In this document: in pieces, positions 15,361-23,328 of the stretch
Layout of the letters: each line of letters starts with the position of its first letter
Position numbering within the stretch: position 1 is the stretch's first letter
NCBI RefSeq assembly: GCF_020169335.1
Contig: NZ_JAIEZN010000001.1
Coordinates: 2,283,805-2,347,804, forward strand
Source of the DNA: Devosia aquimaris
GTDB taxonomy: Bacteria; Pseudomonadota; Alphaproteobacteria; Rhizobiales; Devosiaceae
Direction: 5' to 3'
Length of the DNA stretch: 64,000 nt
Notes under the pieces: generated by a model
Seen by the model: the letters and a program-made list of their open reading frames with translations, nothing else
The model's database searches: none
Told to the model about the DNA's origin: nothing
Position numbers and translations under genes: made by a program

Positions 15361-16499
15361 CCTTCACATTGCACCAGACCGTCCTGGCCGGTGACACGCC
15401 CGGTGCCGCCACAACGCTCTGTTACTACACCATGGGGCCCGAGGACGCCGCGACCCGCGTGCATATCCAGGCGGCACTCCACGCGGACGAACAGCCCGGC
15501 ACCATGGCGCTGCACCATTTGCTGCCGCGACTGCGCGACGCCGATAGTGCGGGCCAGCTGCGGGCGCAAATCACCGTCTTCCCCTCGGTCAATCCGTTGG
15601 GCCTGGCGACATCCAGCCTGCGCCATCATATCGGCCGCTACGACACCCAGACCGGCATCAACTACAATCGACGCTGGCCTGACCTCTATCCGCTCATCGC
15701 CGCCGATCTGCAGGGCCGCCTCGGGCCAGACGGCGCGACCAATCTCCGCACCATTCGTGCCGCTGTGCTAGACTGGATCGACAGCCAGACGCCGGTCACC
15801 GCCATACAGCGCCTGCGATTGCTGGTCCTGCGCTCGGCTGCCGCCGCCGATATTGTGCTGGATCTTCATTGCGATGACGACAGCCTCAAGCACATCTTTA
15901 CCTCGCCCGAGCTGATGCCGGGCCTGCAGGATCTGGCGGACTGGATGGGCGTGGCGGCAACGCTGACCGCCGAGGACAGCGGCGGCGGCTCCTTCGATGA
16001 AGTTCTGCCCACGCTCTATCGCAAGGCGCGCTTGGCCCATCCTGACCATCCCGTCCCTATTGGCGCGGAAACGGCAACGCTTGAGTATCGCGGACGGGCC
16101 GACAGTTTTGACGATCTGGGGCAGGCCGATGCGGCAGGCCTGTTCGGCTTTCTGGCATCGCGTGGCCTGATTGCGGCCGACCCCGGCCCACGCCCACAGC
16201 CGGCGCCGCAGCCCACGCCCTTTGAAGCCACCGAAGTGTTGCGCGTCGATGCGCCGGGCCTTCTGGCCTACCGCGTTGCCTTGGGCGACCGCGTCACTGC
16301 CGGACAGCCCGTCGCCGATCTCATTGCCATGGATGGCCCCGAGGCCTTCCTGCAGCGCACGCCCATTCTCGCGGGCACCGACGGCTTCGTGCTCTCCCGT
16401 GTCATGGGCAAATATGTGCGCCGTGGCGACAGCATCGCCAAGATCGTTGGCACGGCCGTCTTGCCCACGCGGGCCGGCGGCTATCTGTTGGAAGACTAG
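15357..16499 (+). CDS. Succinylglutamate desuccinylase/aspartoacylase-family (M14-type) deacylase
   Basis: A 380-residue zinc-dependent deacylase. The ligands of the M14 AstE/AspA family are visible as H-x-x-E in AALHADEQPG and the second His in VLDLHCDDDS; GINYNRRWPDLYP is the substrate-binding asparagine/arginine region. The C-terminal 90 residues (FEATEVLRVDAPGLLAY, RTPILAGTDGFVLS) form the small beta domain found in rhizobial members. The start overlaps the upstream stop (ATGA). In this operon it may remove acyl groups from N-acylated amino acids taken up by the transporter; the substrate is an inference. Its last four bases overlap the convergent GGDEF/EAL gene. Confidence 0.85.
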   Translation: MTFTLHQTVLAGDTPGAATTLCYYTMGPEDAATRVHIQAALHADEQPGTMALHHLLPRLRDADSAGQLRAQITVFPSVNPLGLATSSLRHHIGRYDTQTGINYNRRWPDLYPLIAADLQGRLGPDGATNLRTIRAAVLDWIDSQTPVTAIQRLRLLVLRSAAAADIVLDLHCDDDSLKHIFTSPELMPGLQDLADWMGVAATLTAEDSGGGSFDEVLPTLYRKARLAHPDHPVPIGAETATLEYRGRADSFDDLGQADAAGLFGFLASRGLIAADPGPRPQPAPQPTPFEATEVLRVDAPGLLAYRVALGDRVTAGQPVADLIAMDGPEAFLQRTPILAGTDGFVLSRVMGKYVRRGDSIAKIVGTAVLPTRAGGYLLED

Positions 16500-18895
16500 C
16501 TGGCCAGCCGGCCCAAAGCGCGCTCGGCTTCGGCCTTCACCTCGGCGGCACGGCCGGGCACGTTCTTGAGCAGGTAGAGCGGCAGGTCGATACTGTCCAG
16601 CGGCCGCGAGAACAGGAACCCCTGCAGCTGGTTGCAGGCGATCCCAGCCAGGAAGTCGGCCTGTTCGCGCGTCTCGACGCCCTCTGCAGTGATCTTGAGC
16701 TTGAGCGTCTTGCCCAGCGAGGCAATGGCCTTGAGAATGTCGCGCGACACCTCATTGTCGCTCGATGCATGAACGAAGGAGCGATCAATCTTGATCTTGT
16801 CGAACGAGAACTTCTGCAGATAGCTCAGGCTCGAATAGCCGGTGCCGAAGTCGTCCATCGCGATGCTGACGCCCAGGGCGCGAATTTCAGCGAGCTTTTC
16901 CACCACCTGCTCTGGGTTTTCCATCAGCAGCCCTTCGGTGATCTCGATCTCGAGCCGCTCCGGGGCCAGACCGGACACCGCCAGAGCCCGCTGCACCACC
17001 TGCGAAATGTCCGAACGCCGGAAATGCTTGGCGGACAGGTTTACCGCCACCGTCAGGTGCTCCGGCCAGGTGACGGCAGCCTTGCAGGCCTCAAAGATGG
17101 TCCAGTCGCCGATGTCGACGATCAGATTGGAATGCTCGGCAATCGGAATGAACTCGGCTGGCGCCACCAGCCCCCGGATCGGATGGTTCCACCGGATCAG
17201 CGCCTCGAAACCGACAGGCTTTTCGTCGTGGGCTGACACCAGCGGCTGGTAGTAAAGCACCAGTTCGTCATTGCCGATGGCTTCGCGCAGGTCACCCTCC
17301 AGCAGCCGCCGTTCGCGCGCCTCCGAATCCATTTCGCTTTCGAACAGGCGATATATCGAACGGCCATCGGCCTTGGCGCGATAGAGCGCCAGGTCGGCAT
17401 TGCGCAGGATCTGGTCCGGACGCGTGCCGTTGAGCGGCGCCATGGCGATGCCGATGCTCACCCCGACGTTGACCTGCTCGTCATCGATGACATAGGGCTG
17501 CTTGATGTCGTGGATCAGCCGCTCGGCCAGCGCCACCACATCGGCCACTTCGCATTCGCTCGGCAACAGCAGGGCAAATTCGTCACCGCCCAGGCGGGCC
17601 GCCATGTCGGCGTCGCGCACGACATTGGCAATCCGTCGCGACACCTGCACCAGCAGCTTGTCGCCCGTCATATGGCCGCGGCTATCGTTGACGGACTTGA
17701 AGTGATCCAGGTCCAGGAACATCAGCGCGAATGGCGTGCCATAGCGCTCCAGCCGCGCAACGCAGCTGTTGAGGTTTTCGGTAAACTTGGTGCGGTTGAG
17801 CAGGCCCGTCATGGAGTCATGATGCGCAAGCATGGTGATGCGCCGCTCGGCCAGCTTGCGTTCAGTGATGTCCGAGCCGGTGCCGATATAGCCCAGATAG
17901 GTTCCCACCTCGTCAAAGGCCGGCTTGCCTGTCAGGCTCCACCAGCATTCCGTCCCGTCCGCCACCACCAGGAGGTTGACGTCCTGGAACGTCTCCCGGT
18001 TCGCGATATCGGCCTCTAGATGCGCAAACATCGGGTCGCCGGGCGGCGTGATGCAGCGCAGAAAATGGACGAAGTCGGCGCCCATCAGCGCATCTTCTGG
18101 CACGCCTGTCGCTGCTGTCAGCCCGGCCGATACTCGATTGATCGCGCCATCGGCATCCGTGCCCCAGATCCAGTCGGAAATGCTCTGTTCGAATTCACGC
18201 AGCAACAGGCCGATGATCTCGCCCTTTTCCTCGACCAGCGTTTCCGAGGCGCGATGCGCCACAAACGCCGAGGCGTGGTAGAAGCTGATTGTCACCAGGA
18301 TGAAGATGAAGATCAGCAGCAGCGCGCCTTGCGCCCAGAACTCGGGCCCATTGTCGAAGGCGGTCACCAGCCCCAGCGCGCCGTCGATCAGCGGGATGAT
18401 AAAGGCTGCCAGCGCTTGCGGATAGTTGACCAACGCCATCATGGCCACACAGGCCAGCCCGCCCGCGCCGATGACAGCGGCGCCGCGAATGGTGGCGCTG
18501 TCGGCGCTGGGCAACAGGTTGAGCACCAGAGCCCACGCAACCCCGAGCAACAGCGCATAGATGATCGTGCGCCGCCCGGTGGTGTTGGGAACTGAATGGG
18601 CCGTTGCCTGTGCATGCCGGAAGGCGAGATAAACAGAGTGCAGTTGCATCGCCACAATCACGCCGACGGCCACAGCCACCCAGATGAACCGTGGCGATCC
18701 CCAGCTCAGCATCAGGAATACTGCGGCCACAGCCACGGAGGCAGCCAGCATGGCAGGCGTCATTTCTGCCACTGAGCGCAACTGCTGATGCAGCAGCTTC
18801 TGGCGGACAAGTGGCGAAAGTCCGTCCGCGCCGATGGCGCGGTCGACAAAACGGTTCACCACTGAAAACAGGCCACTGCCCGGTATGCGGATCAT
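16496..18895 (-). CDS. Membrane-bound PAS-GGDEF-EAL protein (cyclic-di-GMP cyclase/phosphodiesterase)
   Basis: About 799 residues. Six or so N-terminal transmembrane helices (residues about 45-215) are followed by a PAS domain (about 235-350, ending GYIGTGSDITERK), a GGDEF domain and an EAL domain. The cyclase motif RLGGDEFALL is intact (about residues 436-440), with an inhibitory I-site RDAD exactly five residues before it. The phosphodiesterase motifs FEALIRW, DDFGTGYSS and AEGVE are also intact, so both activities are possible. Start: ATG 18895; a GTG at 18919 is in frame, and neither has a good ribosome site. It is divergent from the alpha-oxoamine synthase gene and shares its 200-bp control region. 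Confidence 0.92.
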   Translation of the reverse strand: MIRIPGSGLFSVVNRFVDRAIGADGLSPLVRQKLLHQQLRSVAEMTPAMLAASVAVAAVFLMLSWGSPRFIWVAVAVGVIVAMQLHSVYLAFRHAQATAHSVPNTTGRRTIIYALLLGVAWALVLNLLPSADSATIRGAAVIGAGGLACVAMMALVNYPQALAAFIIPLIDGALGLVTAFDNGPEFWAQGALLLIFIFILVTISFYHASAFVAHRASETLVEEKGEIIGLLLREFEQSISDWIWGTDADGAINRVSAGLTAATGVPEDALMGADFVHFLRCITPPGDPMFAHLEADIANRETFQDVNLLVVADGTECWWSLTGKPAFDEVGTYLGYIGTGSDITERKLAERRITMLAHHDSMTGLLNRTKFTENLNSCVARLERYGTPFALMFLDLDHFKSVNDSRGHMTGDKLLVQVSRRIANVVRDADMAARLGGDEFALLLPSECEVADVVALAERLIHDIKQPYVIDDEQVNVGVSIGIAMAPLNGTRPDQILRNADLALYRAKADGRSIYRLFESEMDSEARERRLLEGDLREAIGNDELVLYYQPLVSAHDEKPVGFEALIRWNHPIRGLVAPAEFIPIAEHSNLIVDIGDWTIFEACKAAVTWPEHLTVAVNLSAKHFRRSDISQVVQRALAVSGLAPERLEIEITEGLLMENPEQVVEKLAEIRALGVSIAMDDFGTGYSSLSYLQKFSFDKIKIDRSFVHASSDNEVSRDILKAIASLGKTLKLKITAEGVETREQADFLAGIACNQLQGFLFSRPLDSIDLPLYLLKNVPGRAAEVKAEAERALGRLAS

Positions 18896-18958
18896 GACCA
18901 CTATATCGCCCGGGAGCACTTAATATTGCGTATGCTCGTGCGCGGCCGCAGATCATCA

Positions 18959-19097: not shown

Positions 19098-20447
19098 ATG
19101 AGTTCACATTTCGAATCCGTGCCGGAAGCTGCACTGACCGGGAGCCTGCGCGACTTCCGTTCGCCAGAAGGCCCAGACCTGATGAGCCGCATTACCGGCT
19201 TCTATGATTGGCAGAACCTGCGCCGTGAGCATCAGCTCTGGCCCTATGCCCGTTCCACCAGCACAGCGCCGACCGCCCATTGCGAAGCGCGCAGCGACAT
19301 TGGCGAGGCTTTCTCCGGCATCAATTTCGGCAGCCAGGACTATCTGAGCCTGTCCTCCCATCCCGCACTGAAAGAGGCTGCCATCAAGGCCATCGGCGAA
19401 TATGGCGTGCACAGCGCCGGTTCCGCCGCCCTGCTGGGCAACACCGCCAATTCGCTGCTGCTCGAACAGGGCCTCTCCGAGTTCCTCGGCGGCCGCGAAG
19501 TCGTGCTCTACCCCACTGGCTGGGCTGCGGGCTACGGTTCGGTGCAGGGCTTCGTCCGCGCCAACGACCATGTGGTGATGGATATCCTGGCCCATTCCTG
19601 CCTCCAGGAAGGCGCCAAGGCTGCCACGCAGAACATTCATTACCATGGCCATCTCAATCTCGACGCCCTGGCCCGCAAACTCGAGCGCATCCGCAGCGCC
19701 GATCCGGACAATGGCATCATGGTCGTCACCGAGAGCCTGTTCTCGATGCACTCCGATACGCCCGATATCGGCGCCATGCGCGCGCTGTGCGACCAGTTCG
19801 GTGCGACCCTGCTGGTGGACTGTGCCCATGATCTGGGCTCGATCGGTGACGACGGCCTGGGCCACCTGGGTCTGCAGAACATGATGGACGCCGCCGACAT
19901 CATTATCGGCAGCTTCTCCAAGACCTTTGGCTCCAATGGTGGCTTCATCGCCGTCAAGACCAAGGCCGCTGCGGAGTATCTCAAGTACTATAGCGCCACC
20001 CACACCTTCTCCAACGCGCTCTCGCCGGTGCAGGCTGCCTCGGTTCTGGCCGCCCTCAACATCGTGCGCTCCGAAGAAGGTCGCACGCTGCGCCGCAAGC
20101 TGATGGACAACATCCTTTACCTGCGCGCCCAGATGGCCAAAGCCGGGCTCGAAACCCTGGGCGATCCCTCGCCCATCGTGCCGGTGCGCCTGGGGCTGGA
20201 AGGCGTTGGCCGCTTTGCCTCGCGCAACCTGATGGCCCTGGGCGGCATTGCCAATCTGGTGGAATATCCGGCTGTGCCGCAGGGCGGGGCACGGTTCCGC
20301 TTCCAGGTCATGGCTTCCCACACCCGCGCGGACATCGACCAGGTCGTGCGCGTGTTGGCCGAGGCCATGCACAACGCCGACATCGAGTACCGGCTGGGCC
20401 ATGAAGGTCAGTCGGATGCAGTCTCCGGCGCAACAGCGGCCGCCTGA
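19098..20447 (+). CDS. Alpha-oxoamine synthase-family PLP enzyme (CqsA/LqsA- or serine palmitoyltransferase-like)
   Basis: A 449-residue fold-type I PLP enzyme. Family signs are the GINFGSQDYLSLSSHP opening, SAGSAALLGNT, the cofactor-binding stretch LLVDCAHDLGSIG and the Schiff-base lysine Lys275 in SFSKTFGSNGG. The family condenses acyl-CoA with an amino acid (AONS, KBL, SPT) or makes the alpha-aminoketone autoinducer precursor (CqsA, LqsA). The usual acidic residue after the PLP Asp (VDEAH/VDDAH) is Cys here. ATG 19098 has GGAG at good spacing. A response regulator follows 12 bp downstream, and a six-helix hybrid kinase is convergent, which favours a signalling role over biotin or heme synthesis. 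Substrate uncertain. Confidence 0.85.
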   Translation: MSSHFESVPEAALTGSLRDFRSPEGPDLMSRITGFYDWQNLRREHQLWPYARSTSTAPTAHCEARSDIGEAFSGINFGSQDYLSLSSHPALKEAAIKAIGEYGVHSAGSAALLGNTANSLLLEQGLSEFLGGREVVLYPTGWAAGYGSVQGFVRANDHVVMDILAHSCLQEGAKAATQNIHYHGHLNLDALARKLERIRSADPDNGIMVVTESLFSMHSDTPDIGAMRALCDQFGATLLVDCAHDLGSIGDDGLGHLGLQNMMDAADIIIGSFSKTFGSNGGFIAVKTKAAAEYLKYYSATHTFSNALSPVQAASVLAALNIVRSEEGRTLRRKLMDNILYLRAQMAKAGLETLGDPSPIVPVRLGLEGVGRFASRNLMALGGIANLVEYPAVPQGGARFRFQVMASHTRADIDQVVRVLAEAMHNADIEYRLGHEGQSDAVSGATAAA

Positions 20448-20459
20448 TCGGAACTTCCC

Positions 20460-20852
20460 ATGGGTCGTGCCCTGAAATTGCTGGCCGTCGACGACGATGC
20501 GCCGTCGGCTGAACTGATCGTCCGTGTTGCTGAACGCTGCGGGTACGAAGGTTTCGCGACCTCCGATCCCCGCGGGTTCATCAATCTGGTGGCTGCCCTG
20601 CAGCCCGATGTCATCACTGTGGACATTACCATGCCCCACATCGACGCCATCGAGCTGTTCGGCATGCTGGCACAACAGCACTTTGACGGCGAGATCGTCA
20701 TCATCAGCGGCCGCGATGAGCAGACCCTGCTCATCGCCCAGCGCGCCGCCGAAGCCCTGGGGCTGCGCCAGCCGTCCGTTCAGCAGAAGCCGGTCGATTT
20801 TGCCTTCCTGCGCAAGACGCTGAACGCCAATCGCCTCGCCCGCGCCAACTAG
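20460..20852 (+). CDS. Single-domain response regulator
   Basis: A 130-residue receiver domain with no output domain. Acidic pocket Asp11-13 (VDDDAPS), phospho-acceptor Asp55 (ITVDITMP), Ser83 (IISGRD) in place of the switch Thr, and Lys110 (QQKPVD) are all present. It follows the alpha-oxoamine synthase gene by 12 bp, so the two are very likely co-transcribed. As a stand-alone receiver it would relay phosphate or act through protein contacts. It ends seven bases before a perfect 30-bp hairpin. Confidence 0.93.
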   Translation: MGRALKLLAVDDDAPSAELIVRVAERCGYEGFATSDPRGFINLVAALQPDVITVDITMPHIDAIELFGMLAQQHFDGEIVIISGRDEQTLLIAQRAAEALGLRQPSVQQKPVDFAFLRKTLNANRLARAN

Positions 20853-20858
20853 ACAAGC

Positions 20859-20924
20859 GCCACACGCATGAATGACAAAGCCCCCGCCAGACATGGCGGG
20901 GGCTTTGTCATTCATGCGTGTGGC
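20859..20924. terminator. Perfect 30-bp inverted repeat between convergent genes
   Basis: Arms 20859-20888 and 20895-20924 are perfectly complementary over 30 bp with a 6-base loop. The inner core (AAAGCCCCCGCC / GGCGGGGGCTTT) is a normal bidirectional terminator, and the outer 18 bp extend it well beyond usual length. It separates the two response-regulator genes. Confidence 0.85.
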
Positions 20925-20929
20925 AGAGA

Positions 20930-21325
20930 CTAGAGCTGCACCATGGCGGCAGCCGGCGTCTTGGGGCCGAGCACAGCCTGCATCTTGCCAAGCAGGCGCG
21001 GCAGATCCACCGGCTTGGTGTCAAAGTCGATGCAGCCGGCCGCCAGGGCATTGGCCCGGTCGGATTCGAAGGCGCTCGCCGTCAGCGCGATGATTGGCAA
21101 TGCTGCCGTTTCCGGATCGGCGTGGATGCGGCGGGTGGCTTCGCAACCATCCATTTCGCCCAGCCCGATATCCATCAGGATCACGTCAGGCATCAGTGCC
21201 TTGGCCGCGGCAATCCCCTTTGGCCCGTCTTCGGCAAAACGAATGGAAAAGCCGCGGCGTTCCAGCCGCCGCCCCAGCACGTCGCGGTTGATCGGGTTGT
21301 CTTCGACAATCAGCACCAGAGCCAT
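20930..21325 (-). CDS. Single-domain response regulator (DivK/CheY-like)
   Basis: A 131-residue receiver with acidic pocket VEDN (Glu8, Asp9), phospho-acceptor Asp52 (ILMDIGLGEMDG), Thr82 (IALTAS) and Lys104 (DTKPVD); all key residues intact. The VEDNPINRDVL opening is the kind seen in receivers paired with hybrid kinases. ATG 21325 has a GGA-type ribosome site. It lies 20 bp downstream of the hybrid kinase gene and is probably its phosphorelay partner. Confidence 0.93.
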   Translation of the reverse strand: MALVLIVEDNPINRDVLGRRLERRGFSIRFAEDGPKGIAAAKALMPDVILMDIGLGEMDGCEATRRIHADPETAALPIIALTASAFESDRANALAAGCIDFDTKPVDLPRLLGKMQAVLGPKTPAAAMVQL

Positions 21326-21345
21326 TGTATCGTTCCGTTCTTTCG

Positions 21346-23229
21346 TCAGACGGCCTTGGCGCGGCCGCGGGTTGCCCGCACAGCCGCCAGCGCAGCTTTG
21401 ACCTTGGAGGCGTCGAGAGGTTTCATCACCACGCCGTCCGCGCCGGCCGCCAGGGCTTTGCTGCGTTCGGTCAGGATCGAGATCATGAACACCGGGATGC
21501 TAGCGGTGATAGGATCGGCCTTGAGCGCGGCCAGCACGTCCCAGCCGTCAAAGCCGGGCATCAGGATATCGAGGAAGATTGCCGCCGGCTTGACTGTCCG
21601 GGCGATCTGCAGCGCCGACTGCGGCGCATCGGTGCAGATCGGGGTGTAGTTTTCCTTGCTGAACAGACGCTCGGCCAGTTCAAGGAAATTGCGGTCATCG
21701 TCCACCACCAGCAGGCGCTCCTGCCGGTCATGGCCCGGCACATGGCCGCTCATGCCCGCATAGCCTGCCTTGCGCTGGCCCACGTCGGCCTCGCTCTCAT
21801 CGAGCAGGGCATCGTCCTCATGTGCGCGGCGCCGCACCACATGGATCGGCACTGGCTCGGATTTGACGGGCTCGGGTTGGACCGGCAGCCGCATGGTGAA
21901 ACAGCTGCCCTTGCCCAGTTCGCTGTCGACGCTGATCTCGCCGCCCATCAGCCGGCACAGGTTCTGGCTGAGCGAAAGGCCCAGACCGGTGCCGCCATAG
22001 ACGGCCGCGATCTTGGAGCTCGCCTGGGTAAAATTGGAGAACAGCGCCCGCTGCTGCTCCTTGGAAATGCCGATGCCGGTGTCCTTGACCGACACCTCCA
22101 CCCATTGCCCATCCCGCTTGGCACTCAACGTAATGGTGCCGTTTTGGGTAAATTTGGTGGCATTGGACAGCAGGTTGAAAATGGTCTGACGCAGCTTGGT
22201 GGCATCAAGACGGACCATGCCGATGTCGTCGCCGCGCTCCACCACCAGATTGTTGGTGTTCTTGGCAGCCAGGGGGCGTGCCGTGGCCTCCACCTCATTG
22301 AGCAGCTGGTCCATGTCGATGTTCTCGACATGCAGCGTCATCTTGCCGGCCTCGATCTTGGAGATGTCGAGGATGTCGTTGACCATCGCCAGCAGGTGCT
22401 TGCCGGCGGCACTGATCTTCTGCAGGTCGGCGATCTGCTCCCCACGACCATCCAGTTCGGCATCCTCGAGCAGGATTTCCGAATAGCCCAGCACGGCATT
22501 GAGCGGGGTGCGCAGCTCGTGGCTCATCTTGGCCAGGAATTCCGACTTGGCGCCGTTGGCACGCTCAGCCTCGTCCTTGGCGCTGGTCAGTGCCTTGAGG
22601 GTGAACTGGTGGCGATCGATTTCCTTGATCAGTTCAGACTGGCTGTCGACGACGGTGGCGTAGTAGGCGGCCATCATGAACACATAGATATTGGCACCCA
22701 GAGCCGAGAGGAGCCCCGCAACGACCATCTCGCTGACCGGGATGTTCTCGGGAAATTCGGCAAACAGATAAAGGCCATAAAGGGCCGCCAGCCCGCCGGT
22801 GATCAGGCTGATCACGAACACGCGCGCCGACCACGTCGAGCCCAGATACATGAAGGCCAGCAGCGGCACGAGCACCAGCCACACCAGGAACGGCGAGCTC
22901 GCGCCACCGTAGTTGTAGGTGCCCCACATCACGCAGAATGTCAGGTTCACCACCGAGGCCATGGCCAGTGGCGTGTAAGCGCGCGGGAACATCTTGACCA
23001 GCGCCAGGAACGGCCAGAAGCCATAGATCGAGGCGGCCAGGATCAGCACATGTGGCCAGGGCTGCGGGTCGGCAAACCACAGAAACAGCGGAATCGGCGA
23101 GGCGATGATGGGGCCGAAGATATGGCTGATGATGAACATCTGCACACGCTTGCGCGTGTGCAGGTCGCTGGCCATGTGCACCGGAATGAACCAGTTCACG
23201 AAAGCCTGGAAGCCAGACGGAATATCCAC
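21346..23229 (-). CDS. Six-helix membrane hybrid histidine kinase with C-terminal receiver
   Basis: About 627 residues. Six hydrophobic helices fill the first 195 residues, without a large periplasmic domain. Then comes a HisKA domain with the phospho-His in KMSHELRTPLNAV (codon 22519-22521), a HATPase domain (NLLSNATKFT, DTGIGI, GGTGLGLSLS) and a receiver starting LLVVDDDRNFLELA with phospho-Asp in AIFLDILMPGFDG. No histidine phosphotransfer domain is attached. Start: GTG 23229 has GAGG seven bases upstream; a TTG at 23271 gives 14 more residues but a poorly spaced ribosome site. Six short helices plus kinase plus receiver is the layout of CqsS. Confidence 0.92.
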   Translation of the reverse strand: MDIPSGFQAFVNWFIPVHMASDLHTRKRVQMFIISHIFGPIIASPIPLFLWFADPQPWPHVLILAASIYGFWPFLALVKMFPRAYTPLAMASVVNLTFCVMWGTYNYGGASSPFLVWLVLVPLLAFMYLGSTWSARVFVISLITGGLAALYGLYLFAEFPENIPVSEMVVAGLLSALGANIYVFMMAAYYATVVDSQSELIKEIDRHQFTLKALTSAKDEAERANGAKSEFLAKMSHELRTPLNAVLGYSEILLEDAELDGRGEQIADLQKISAAGKHLLAMVNDILDISKIEAGKMTLHVENIDMDQLLNEVEATARPLAAKNTNNLVVERGDDIGMVRLDATKLRQTIFNLLSNATKFTQNGTITLSAKRDGQWVEVSVKDTGIGISKEQQRALFSNFTQASSKIAAVYGGTGLGLSLSQNLCRLMGGEISVDSELGKGSCFTMRLPVQPEPVKSEPVPIHVVRRRAHEDDALLDESEADVGQRKAGYAGMSGHVPGHDRQERLLVVDDDRNFLELAERLFSKENYTPICTDAPQSALQIARTVKPAAIFLDILMPGFDGWDVLAALKADPITASIPVFMISILTERSKALAAGADGVVMKPLDASKVKAALAAVRATRGRAKAV

Positions 23230-23328
23230 GACGATGCCTCGCACGATGTGATCCCGCGAGAGTGGACGCAACCCTTTGAAAAGAGGTAAATTTGGCCTGA
23301 GAACCCCGATCTATCGGCGTTTTGCCGC

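Follow-up and report, generated by a model that had tools for sequence, protein, structure and literature searches.

The window, that is, the whole stretch of 64,000 nucleotides of the Devosia aquimaris genome analysed here, carries a locus of a soil-type bacterium in which an alpha-oxoamine synthase (AOS), hereafter SYN, lies close to a hybrid histidine kinase with a sensor domain of six transmembrane helices (6TM). We consider it rather likely that the two belong to an independent signalling system, in which an AOS makes a lipophilic signal perceived by a receptor family of its own, and which works like alpha-hydroxyketone signalling. In a clade-alignment scan of named species genomes, from which the best 80 of 316 loci were taken, 67 of the 80 loci have a sensor domain (as a kinase or as a GGDEF-EAL fusion) next to the synthase. 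Furthermore, in two draws of genomes, one from the order and one from the class, all 12 genomes with a strong sensor also encode the synthase, the two being unlinked in four. Because of this linkage and the genome-wide co-occurrence, the association of synthase and sensor is real and not due to chance. The conserved pairing, often accompanied by enzymes of cyclic di-GMP (c-di-GMP) turnover, suggests an unstudied bacterial signalling system.

A preliminary description of the locus had named an AOS followed by a receiver and, convergent to them, a six-helix hybrid kinase with a second receiver. Open reading frames and Pfam matches bear out all four genes. The kinase frame reaches 23271, slightly different from the 23229 given there, and a divergent GGDEF-EAL protein had gone unmentioned. 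The features are:

19098..20447, plus strand: AOS (SYN), 449 aa; Pfam aminotransferase class I/II
20460..20852, plus strand: REC1, single-domain receiver, 130 aa; Pfam Response_reg only; 12 bases 3' of SYN
20930..21325, minus strand: REC2, single-domain receiver, 131 aa; Pfam Response_reg only; 20 bases 3' of the kinase
21346..23271, minus strand: hybrid histidine kinase, 641 aa; 6TM sensor domain, HisKA, HATPase_c and receiver (REC)
22597..23217, minus strand: 6TM sensor domain of the hybrid kinase, from hydropathy, AlphaFold2 and profile comparison
16496..18919, minus strand: GGDEF-EAL protein, divergent from SYN, 807 aa; hydrophobic N-terminus, PAS, GGDEF and EAL

The SYN-REC1 pair on the plus strand and the kinase-REC2 pair on the minus strand are convergent. 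The kinase starts with TTG in the list of open reading frames, its exact start codon being uncertain. In the GGDEF-EAL protein the motifs GGDEF, EAL, DDFGTG and AEGVET are all intact. A promoter and terminator scan gave site numbers not above those of shuffled sequence.

Linkage and co-occurrence of synthase and sensor

The neighbourhood, whose conservation the preliminary description had put forward as a check, is kept well beyond one order: the 80 loci come from Devosia, Mesorhizobium, Nitratireductor, Rhizobium, Ciceribacter, Bradyrhizobium, Microvirga, Phenylobacterium, Sphingomonas and Minwuia, from Kordiimonadales and Rhodospirillales, and from three bins named as Betaproteobacteria. Among loci with sufficient flank the sensor is linked in 67 of 76, never farther than 5.1 kb from the synthase, and in four of the 13 sensor-less loci (L110, L117, L133 and L169; L and G numbers are our handles for loci and genomes) the sequence ends near the synthase. 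The sensor-linked loci show three layouts. In 36 of them (layout A) a single 6TM protein is present that is not fused to GGDEF-EAL; its kinase core is in frame with the 6TM domain in 34, L102 and L103 having broken frames, and it is accompanied by a relative of REC2 in 35, a relative of REC1 in 26 and a separate GGDEF-EAL gene in 25. Nine loci (layout B) fuse the 6TM domain to GGDEF-EAL in one protein, with the GGDEF and EAL motifs intact in all. Another 22 (layout C) encode two 6TM kinases, with the kinase core in both frames and a REC2 relative in every locus; GGDEF-EAL occurs in 11 of these, ten times with a REC in front. The same 6TM domain is thus combined with a varying output module, which makes the membrane domain the constant partner of the synthase, as expected of a receptor. 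Across the 45 single-sensor loci, synthase distances also follow sensor distances (Mantel r 0.855, a value reached in 0 of 2000 permutations), which is weak support, given that shared species history remains in the statistic.

The genome draws extend this picture to the whole genome. Among the 297 genomes of the order draw, the synthase is found at an identity of at least 43% in 11 and of at least 54% in 8, and a strong sensor (E < 1e-70) is present in exactly those 8. In G174 and G272 the sensor lies on a different contig from the synthase, where it again forms a layout-C arrangement together with REC2 and REC-GGDEF-EAL. The class draw of 385 genomes gave the synthase in 6 and a strong sensor in 5, all of them within the 6, with G552 as the exception; in G736 and G824 the kinase and REC2 are distant from the synthase. 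L140 and L144, two of the well-flanked loci without a linked sensor, appear to correspond to G824 and G736, genomes with an unlinked sensor. Synthase and sensor occur together in 3 of the 13 genomes of the window's own family, and neither occurs in the other 10; within one genus the synthase is patchy, occurring in 2 of 7 genomes.

Enzyme clade and membrane domain

SYN scores 248 bits with the NCBIfam model of BioF (cut-off 426), 225 with SPT (640), 221 with KBL (460), 169.4 with the CqsA-type model NF005526 (428) and 165 with ALAS (339). In all three AOS trees (maximum likelihood, quick method; 83, 79 and 82 proteins), SYN groups with its relatives in a single clade (SH-aLRT 100, long stem), separate from the CqsA, ALAS, BioF, SPT and KBL rows, CqsA itself being a distinct clade. 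Of these reference rows, all 11 for CqsA and all 8 for ALAS pass their own curated cut-off, as do 3 of 4 for KBL, 1 of 4 for BioF and 1 of 5 for SPT; the others owe their label to the best score alone, and in the tree unlabelled rows from the order are interspersed with those of KBL and SPT. L048, the G238 copy with an internal stop and no frame of 300 aa, was excluded from every tree; as long or odd branches, L065, L031, L049 and L050 were left out of the second tree, and also L027 of the third. Being below the curated cut-offs and outside the tree groups of SPT, BioF, KBL and ALAS, SYN does not belong to any of these families; firm grouping inside one of the first three is what the preliminary description had named as refuting its proposal. 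The approximately unbiased (AU) test does not reject a topology that puts SYN on the same side as CqsA (p 0.467).

SYN retains the pyridoxal phosphate (PLP) lysine K275 together with H166, D241, H244 and R401, residues which we take to carry AOS chemistry and which, like the fold family, it has in common with SPT, BioF, KBL and ALAS. Its clade has in addition a signature consisting of Q80 (N in the five reference groups), H105, G145 (N in the references) and S309. Given these retained residues and the clade's own signature, the enzyme is probably active and probably uses its own substrate pair. AOS genes 43-48% identical to SYN were observed in G226, G072 and G238 (L046, L047 and L295), genomes without a sensor match, the G238 copy being interrupted by a stop; these relatives may serve another function.

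Ahead of HisKA, the window kinase has six hydrophobic stretches (best windows at 46-64, 74-92, 98-116, 128-146, 151-169 and 182-200), and Pfam, which recognises HisKA, HATPase_c and Response_reg, gives no match before residue 241. The AlphaFold2 model of the 6TM domain, built from 28 relatives (mean pLDDT 94.6, pTM 0.88), consists of helices only, with short loops and a final helix extending toward HisKA, which points to a kinase without a periplasmic domain. Hydropathy, model and Pfam thus agree with the six helices and the missing periplasmic domain of the preliminary description. A Foldseek search for the membrane domain found no solved structure at E <= 0.001, the best hit being an adiponectin receptor (E 0.47) that we do not count as evidence.

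Aligned by hhalign with 11 CqsS-type domains, the 6TM domain (28 sensor domains) gave a probability of 1.3 and E 0.041, that is, no detectable relation; the CqsS-type set comprises the membrane domains of 11 kinases near CqsA, from loci fetched with the CqsA model, and in the phylum draw for this model 11 of 299 genomes were above the cut-off. Run against the CqsA-neighbouring kinases, the sensor profile found none above noise (best E 5.3). A membrane domain unrelated to CqsS is what the preliminary description had itself named as refuting its proposal, and no relation was detected.

A relation was detected to DivJ-like kinases. The sensor profile weakly matched 8 further kinases of the order draw (E 1e-11 to 1e-16), and among 5 of them compared with NCBIfam, DivJ was the best family in 4 and third in 1, all below the 1000-bit cut-off. 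Their membrane domains align with the sensor family over the full length (hhalign probability 99, E 3e-18, 192 columns), although these rows were recruited by the sensor profile, and so are not an independent sample, and carry the DivJ label from sub-cut-off matches. No match was found between the DivJ-like and the CqsS-type domains (probability 0.5). The window kinase itself reaches 150 of 1000 bits with the DivJ model, over residues 217-468 (the kinase core) only. Unlike DivJ it has a C-terminal REC and a partner synthase, and it lacks by Pfam the PAS domain that is found between membrane domain and HisKA in the one DivJ-like kinase scanned.

Sensor relatives beside CqsA

The class search also revealed sensor domains at intermediate distance (E 1e-24 to 1e-42). 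In three alphaproteobacterial genomes, G559, G727 and G889, a kinase with such a domain is divergent from a CqsA-family AOS gene scoring 489, 461 and 453 bits, respectively (cut-off 428), and these synthases group with CqsA (SH-aLRT 100). A second CqsA of G559 adjoins a CqsS-type kinase (E 2.3e-49). In this one genome, CqsA is thus paired with two unrelated receptor types, one being a relative of the window type, which is our strongest argument that the 6TM domain of the window reads AOS-made ketones. In the sensor tree, the CqsA partners of G727 and G889 form a set with orphan kinases of G727 and G816 (support 98), and the G559 partner, which has no supported branch to itself, is closest to this G727/G889/G816 set. 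G816 carries two CqsA genes at other places in its genome. CqsA is present in 4 of 4 of these genomes (G559, G727, G889 and G816) and in 0 of 12 others searched, the genomes being hand-picked and not a random draw. Of 17 sensor genes in the class draw, 6 adjoin a synthase, three times SYN (G000, the window genome, G727 and G889) and three times CqsA; G736 and G824 have SYN elsewhere, and several others have neither synthase. As to the earlier idea of an alphaproteobacterial version of CqsA/CqsS or LqsA/LqsS, sensor relatives do partner true CqsA, but the window system is not such a version by descent, as both the CqsA score of SYN and the membrane domain without detectable relation to CqsS indicate.

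Some further observations concern these genes. Two orphan hybrid kinases with a 6TM relative (L286:2544-5315 and L299:2802-5585) have CqsA elsewhere in the genome and are candidate second receptors for the same signal. On contig C86 of G816, a single frame of 1207 aa (L309:6146-9766) contains an MMPL exporter domain recognised by Pfam, followed by a CqsA-type AOS domain (residues 827-1189) scoring above the CqsA cut-off, with pump-like genes and a second CqsA nearby; this is possibly an exporter-synthase fusion for a ketone signal. A kinase near the CqsA/CqsS pair of G559 (L310:3165-4637) contains a weak relative (E 8.6e-7) of the hydrophobic N-terminus of the window GGDEF-EAL protein. This N-terminus is perhaps another membrane domain linked to AOS signals.

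Proposed mechanism, alternatives and meaning

Computation establishes the clade of the synthase and its catalytic residues, the family of the receptor, the linkage and co-occurrence of the two and the change of output domain; substrates, product, match of ligand and receptor, export, density dependence and direction of the response are what we infer. SYN, as an active PLP enzyme, would join an acyl thioester to an amino acid, or to a comparable carboxylate donor, in a condensation whose lipophilic, alpha-aminoketone-like product may mature into a hydroxyketone. The six-helix domain would read this product within the membrane, and ligand binding would shift the kinase/phosphatase balance and the flow of phosphate to the hybrid receiver and to REC2 and REC1. 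A model for such a ligand effect is provided by CAI-1, which changes CqsS kinase activity according to PMC3310172. In many relatives, the output is expected to be c-di-GMP turnover, by REC-GGDEF-EAL, by a separate GGDEF-EAL protein, as in the window, or by a 6TM-GGDEF-EAL fusion.

In alpha-hydroxyketone quorum sensing by CqsA/CqsS of Vibrio, LqsA/LqsS/LqsR of Legionella and JqsA/JqsS/JqsR of Janthinobacterium, as here, an AOS-fold synthase adjoins a six-helix kinase without periplasmic domain, with one or more receivers. The literature names relatives of Cqs/Lqs in Ralstonia, Nitrococcus, Burkholderia and Polaromonas (PMC3376566) and adds Janthinobacterium (PMC3566124). The window type differs in its distinct synthase clade with Q80, H105, G145 and S309, in a 6TM domain not detectably related to CqsS, and in its c-di-GMP enzymes, which 45 of 67 loci have within the sensor protein or next to it. 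Nor does the earlier parallel to LqsR as a single-domain regulator hold: REC1 and REC2 consist of the receiver only, unlike LqsR, whose receiver has additional N- and C-terminal parts (PMC3376566).

Several observations weigh against a signalling system of this kind. Nine loci with sufficient flank have no linked sensor, G552 encodes a synthase (E 3e-169) without a sensor match in its genome, as is also the case for the 43-48% relatives, and sensor relatives occur in G735, G896 and G777, where neither synthase was found. A GGDEF-EAL gene, fused or separate, accompanies only those 45 of the 67 sensor-linked loci. Among the first 40 neighbour clusters listed for 56 deduplicated loci, no exporter or reductase recurs beyond a minority (porin 13, ABC ATPase 10 and SDR 8 of 56), and the search for a recurrent exporter or tailoring enzyme yielded generic genes only; the GGDEF cluster is inflated by receiver matches there, and our GGDEF-EAL counts come from the separate layout count. 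Finally, DivJ-type membrane domains may mediate protein contacts and not ligand binding.

The main rival, which we regard as unlikely but worth keeping in mind, is a private metabolic monitor, in which SYN makes a membrane lipid or sphingoid-like base whose level the kinase senses in the producing cell, with no exchange between cells. SPT indeed belongs to the AOS enzymes, the best PDB matches of SYN by phmmer are bacterial SPTs, a lipid would fit a membrane sensor, and most loci have no exporter or tailoring gene beside the synthase among the clusters listed. Yet SYN falls outside the SPT rows, we recognised no gene for sphingolipid synthesis or turnover in the listed recurrent neighbours, the sensor has relatives that pair with CqsA autoinducer synthases, and the patchiness within one genus is more in keeping with an accessory signal than with a structural lipid. 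Less probable again, and in our view distinctly doubtful, is a cell-cycle or polarity module, the kinase being a DivJ paralogue that binds protein partners and SYN altering the membrane or being loosely connected. The homology to the membrane domain of DivJ-like kinases and the c-di-GMP enzymes close by speak for it, as does Caulobacter SpmX, which has membrane tethers and recruits DivJ according to PMC5347347; the absence of PAS, the tracking of the synthase by the strong membrane domain across genomes, and the 6TM domain that adjoins the synthase even when fused to GGDEF-EAL speak against it.

Orthology to CqsA/CqsS or LqsA/LqsS, with a CAI-1- or LAI-1-like hydroxyketone as product, matches the gene types and the unrejected joint grouping of SYN and CqsA; we nevertheless reject it as very improbable, given the 169 of 428 bits on the CqsA model, the clade of its own at SH-aLRT 100, the membrane domain without sequence relation and receivers unlike LqsR. 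The chemistry of the SYN product could converge with that of Cqs/Lqs all the same. Hardly credible at all is a chance association without functional link, which would accommodate the well-flanked loci lacking a linked sensor and the lone synthase of G552, but not the linkage in most loci or the co-occurrence in genomes where the two are unlinked. The independent signalling system we favour is one that works like alpha-hydroxyketone signalling, yet whose enzyme and receptor both fall outside Cqs/Lqs. Among the literature matches listed, no title or abstract deals with the combination of an AOS and a DivJ-type sensor in Alphaproteobacteria, most subscription journals and preprints being outside the search.

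More tentatively, and with somewhat less than even credence, we suggest that the 6TM domain represents an unnamed family of AOS-ketone receptors in Alphaproteobacteria, which would serve two synthase clades (SYN and, in some genomes, CqsA), and that a Rhizobium-type synthase with a 6TM-GGDEF-EAL protein may form a complete two-gene circuit from signal to c-di-GMP. As DivJ-like kinases carry a relative of the 6TM domain, DivJ may likewise have a receptor for a lipophilic ligand as its ancestor, or may still act as one. A LuxI-type synthase is found above cut-off in 1 of 14 sensor-bearing genomes searched; a sub-threshold LuxI-family match was observed in the window genome (G000:C2:341704-341991; 21.8 bits, cut-off 24) and likewise in its sister G179.

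If our reading is true, Alphaproteobacteria such as Devosia, Rhizobium, Bradyrhizobium, Phenylobacterium and others would possess a signal system that is not of the acyl-homoserine-lactone type, has an enzyme clade and a receptor to itself, and is wired in some lineages directly to c-di-GMP, the messenger of attachment and biofilm formation. It would also provide a natural experiment, in which one CqsA family is served by two unrelated receptor types, and a ligand hypothesis for the membrane domain of DivJ.

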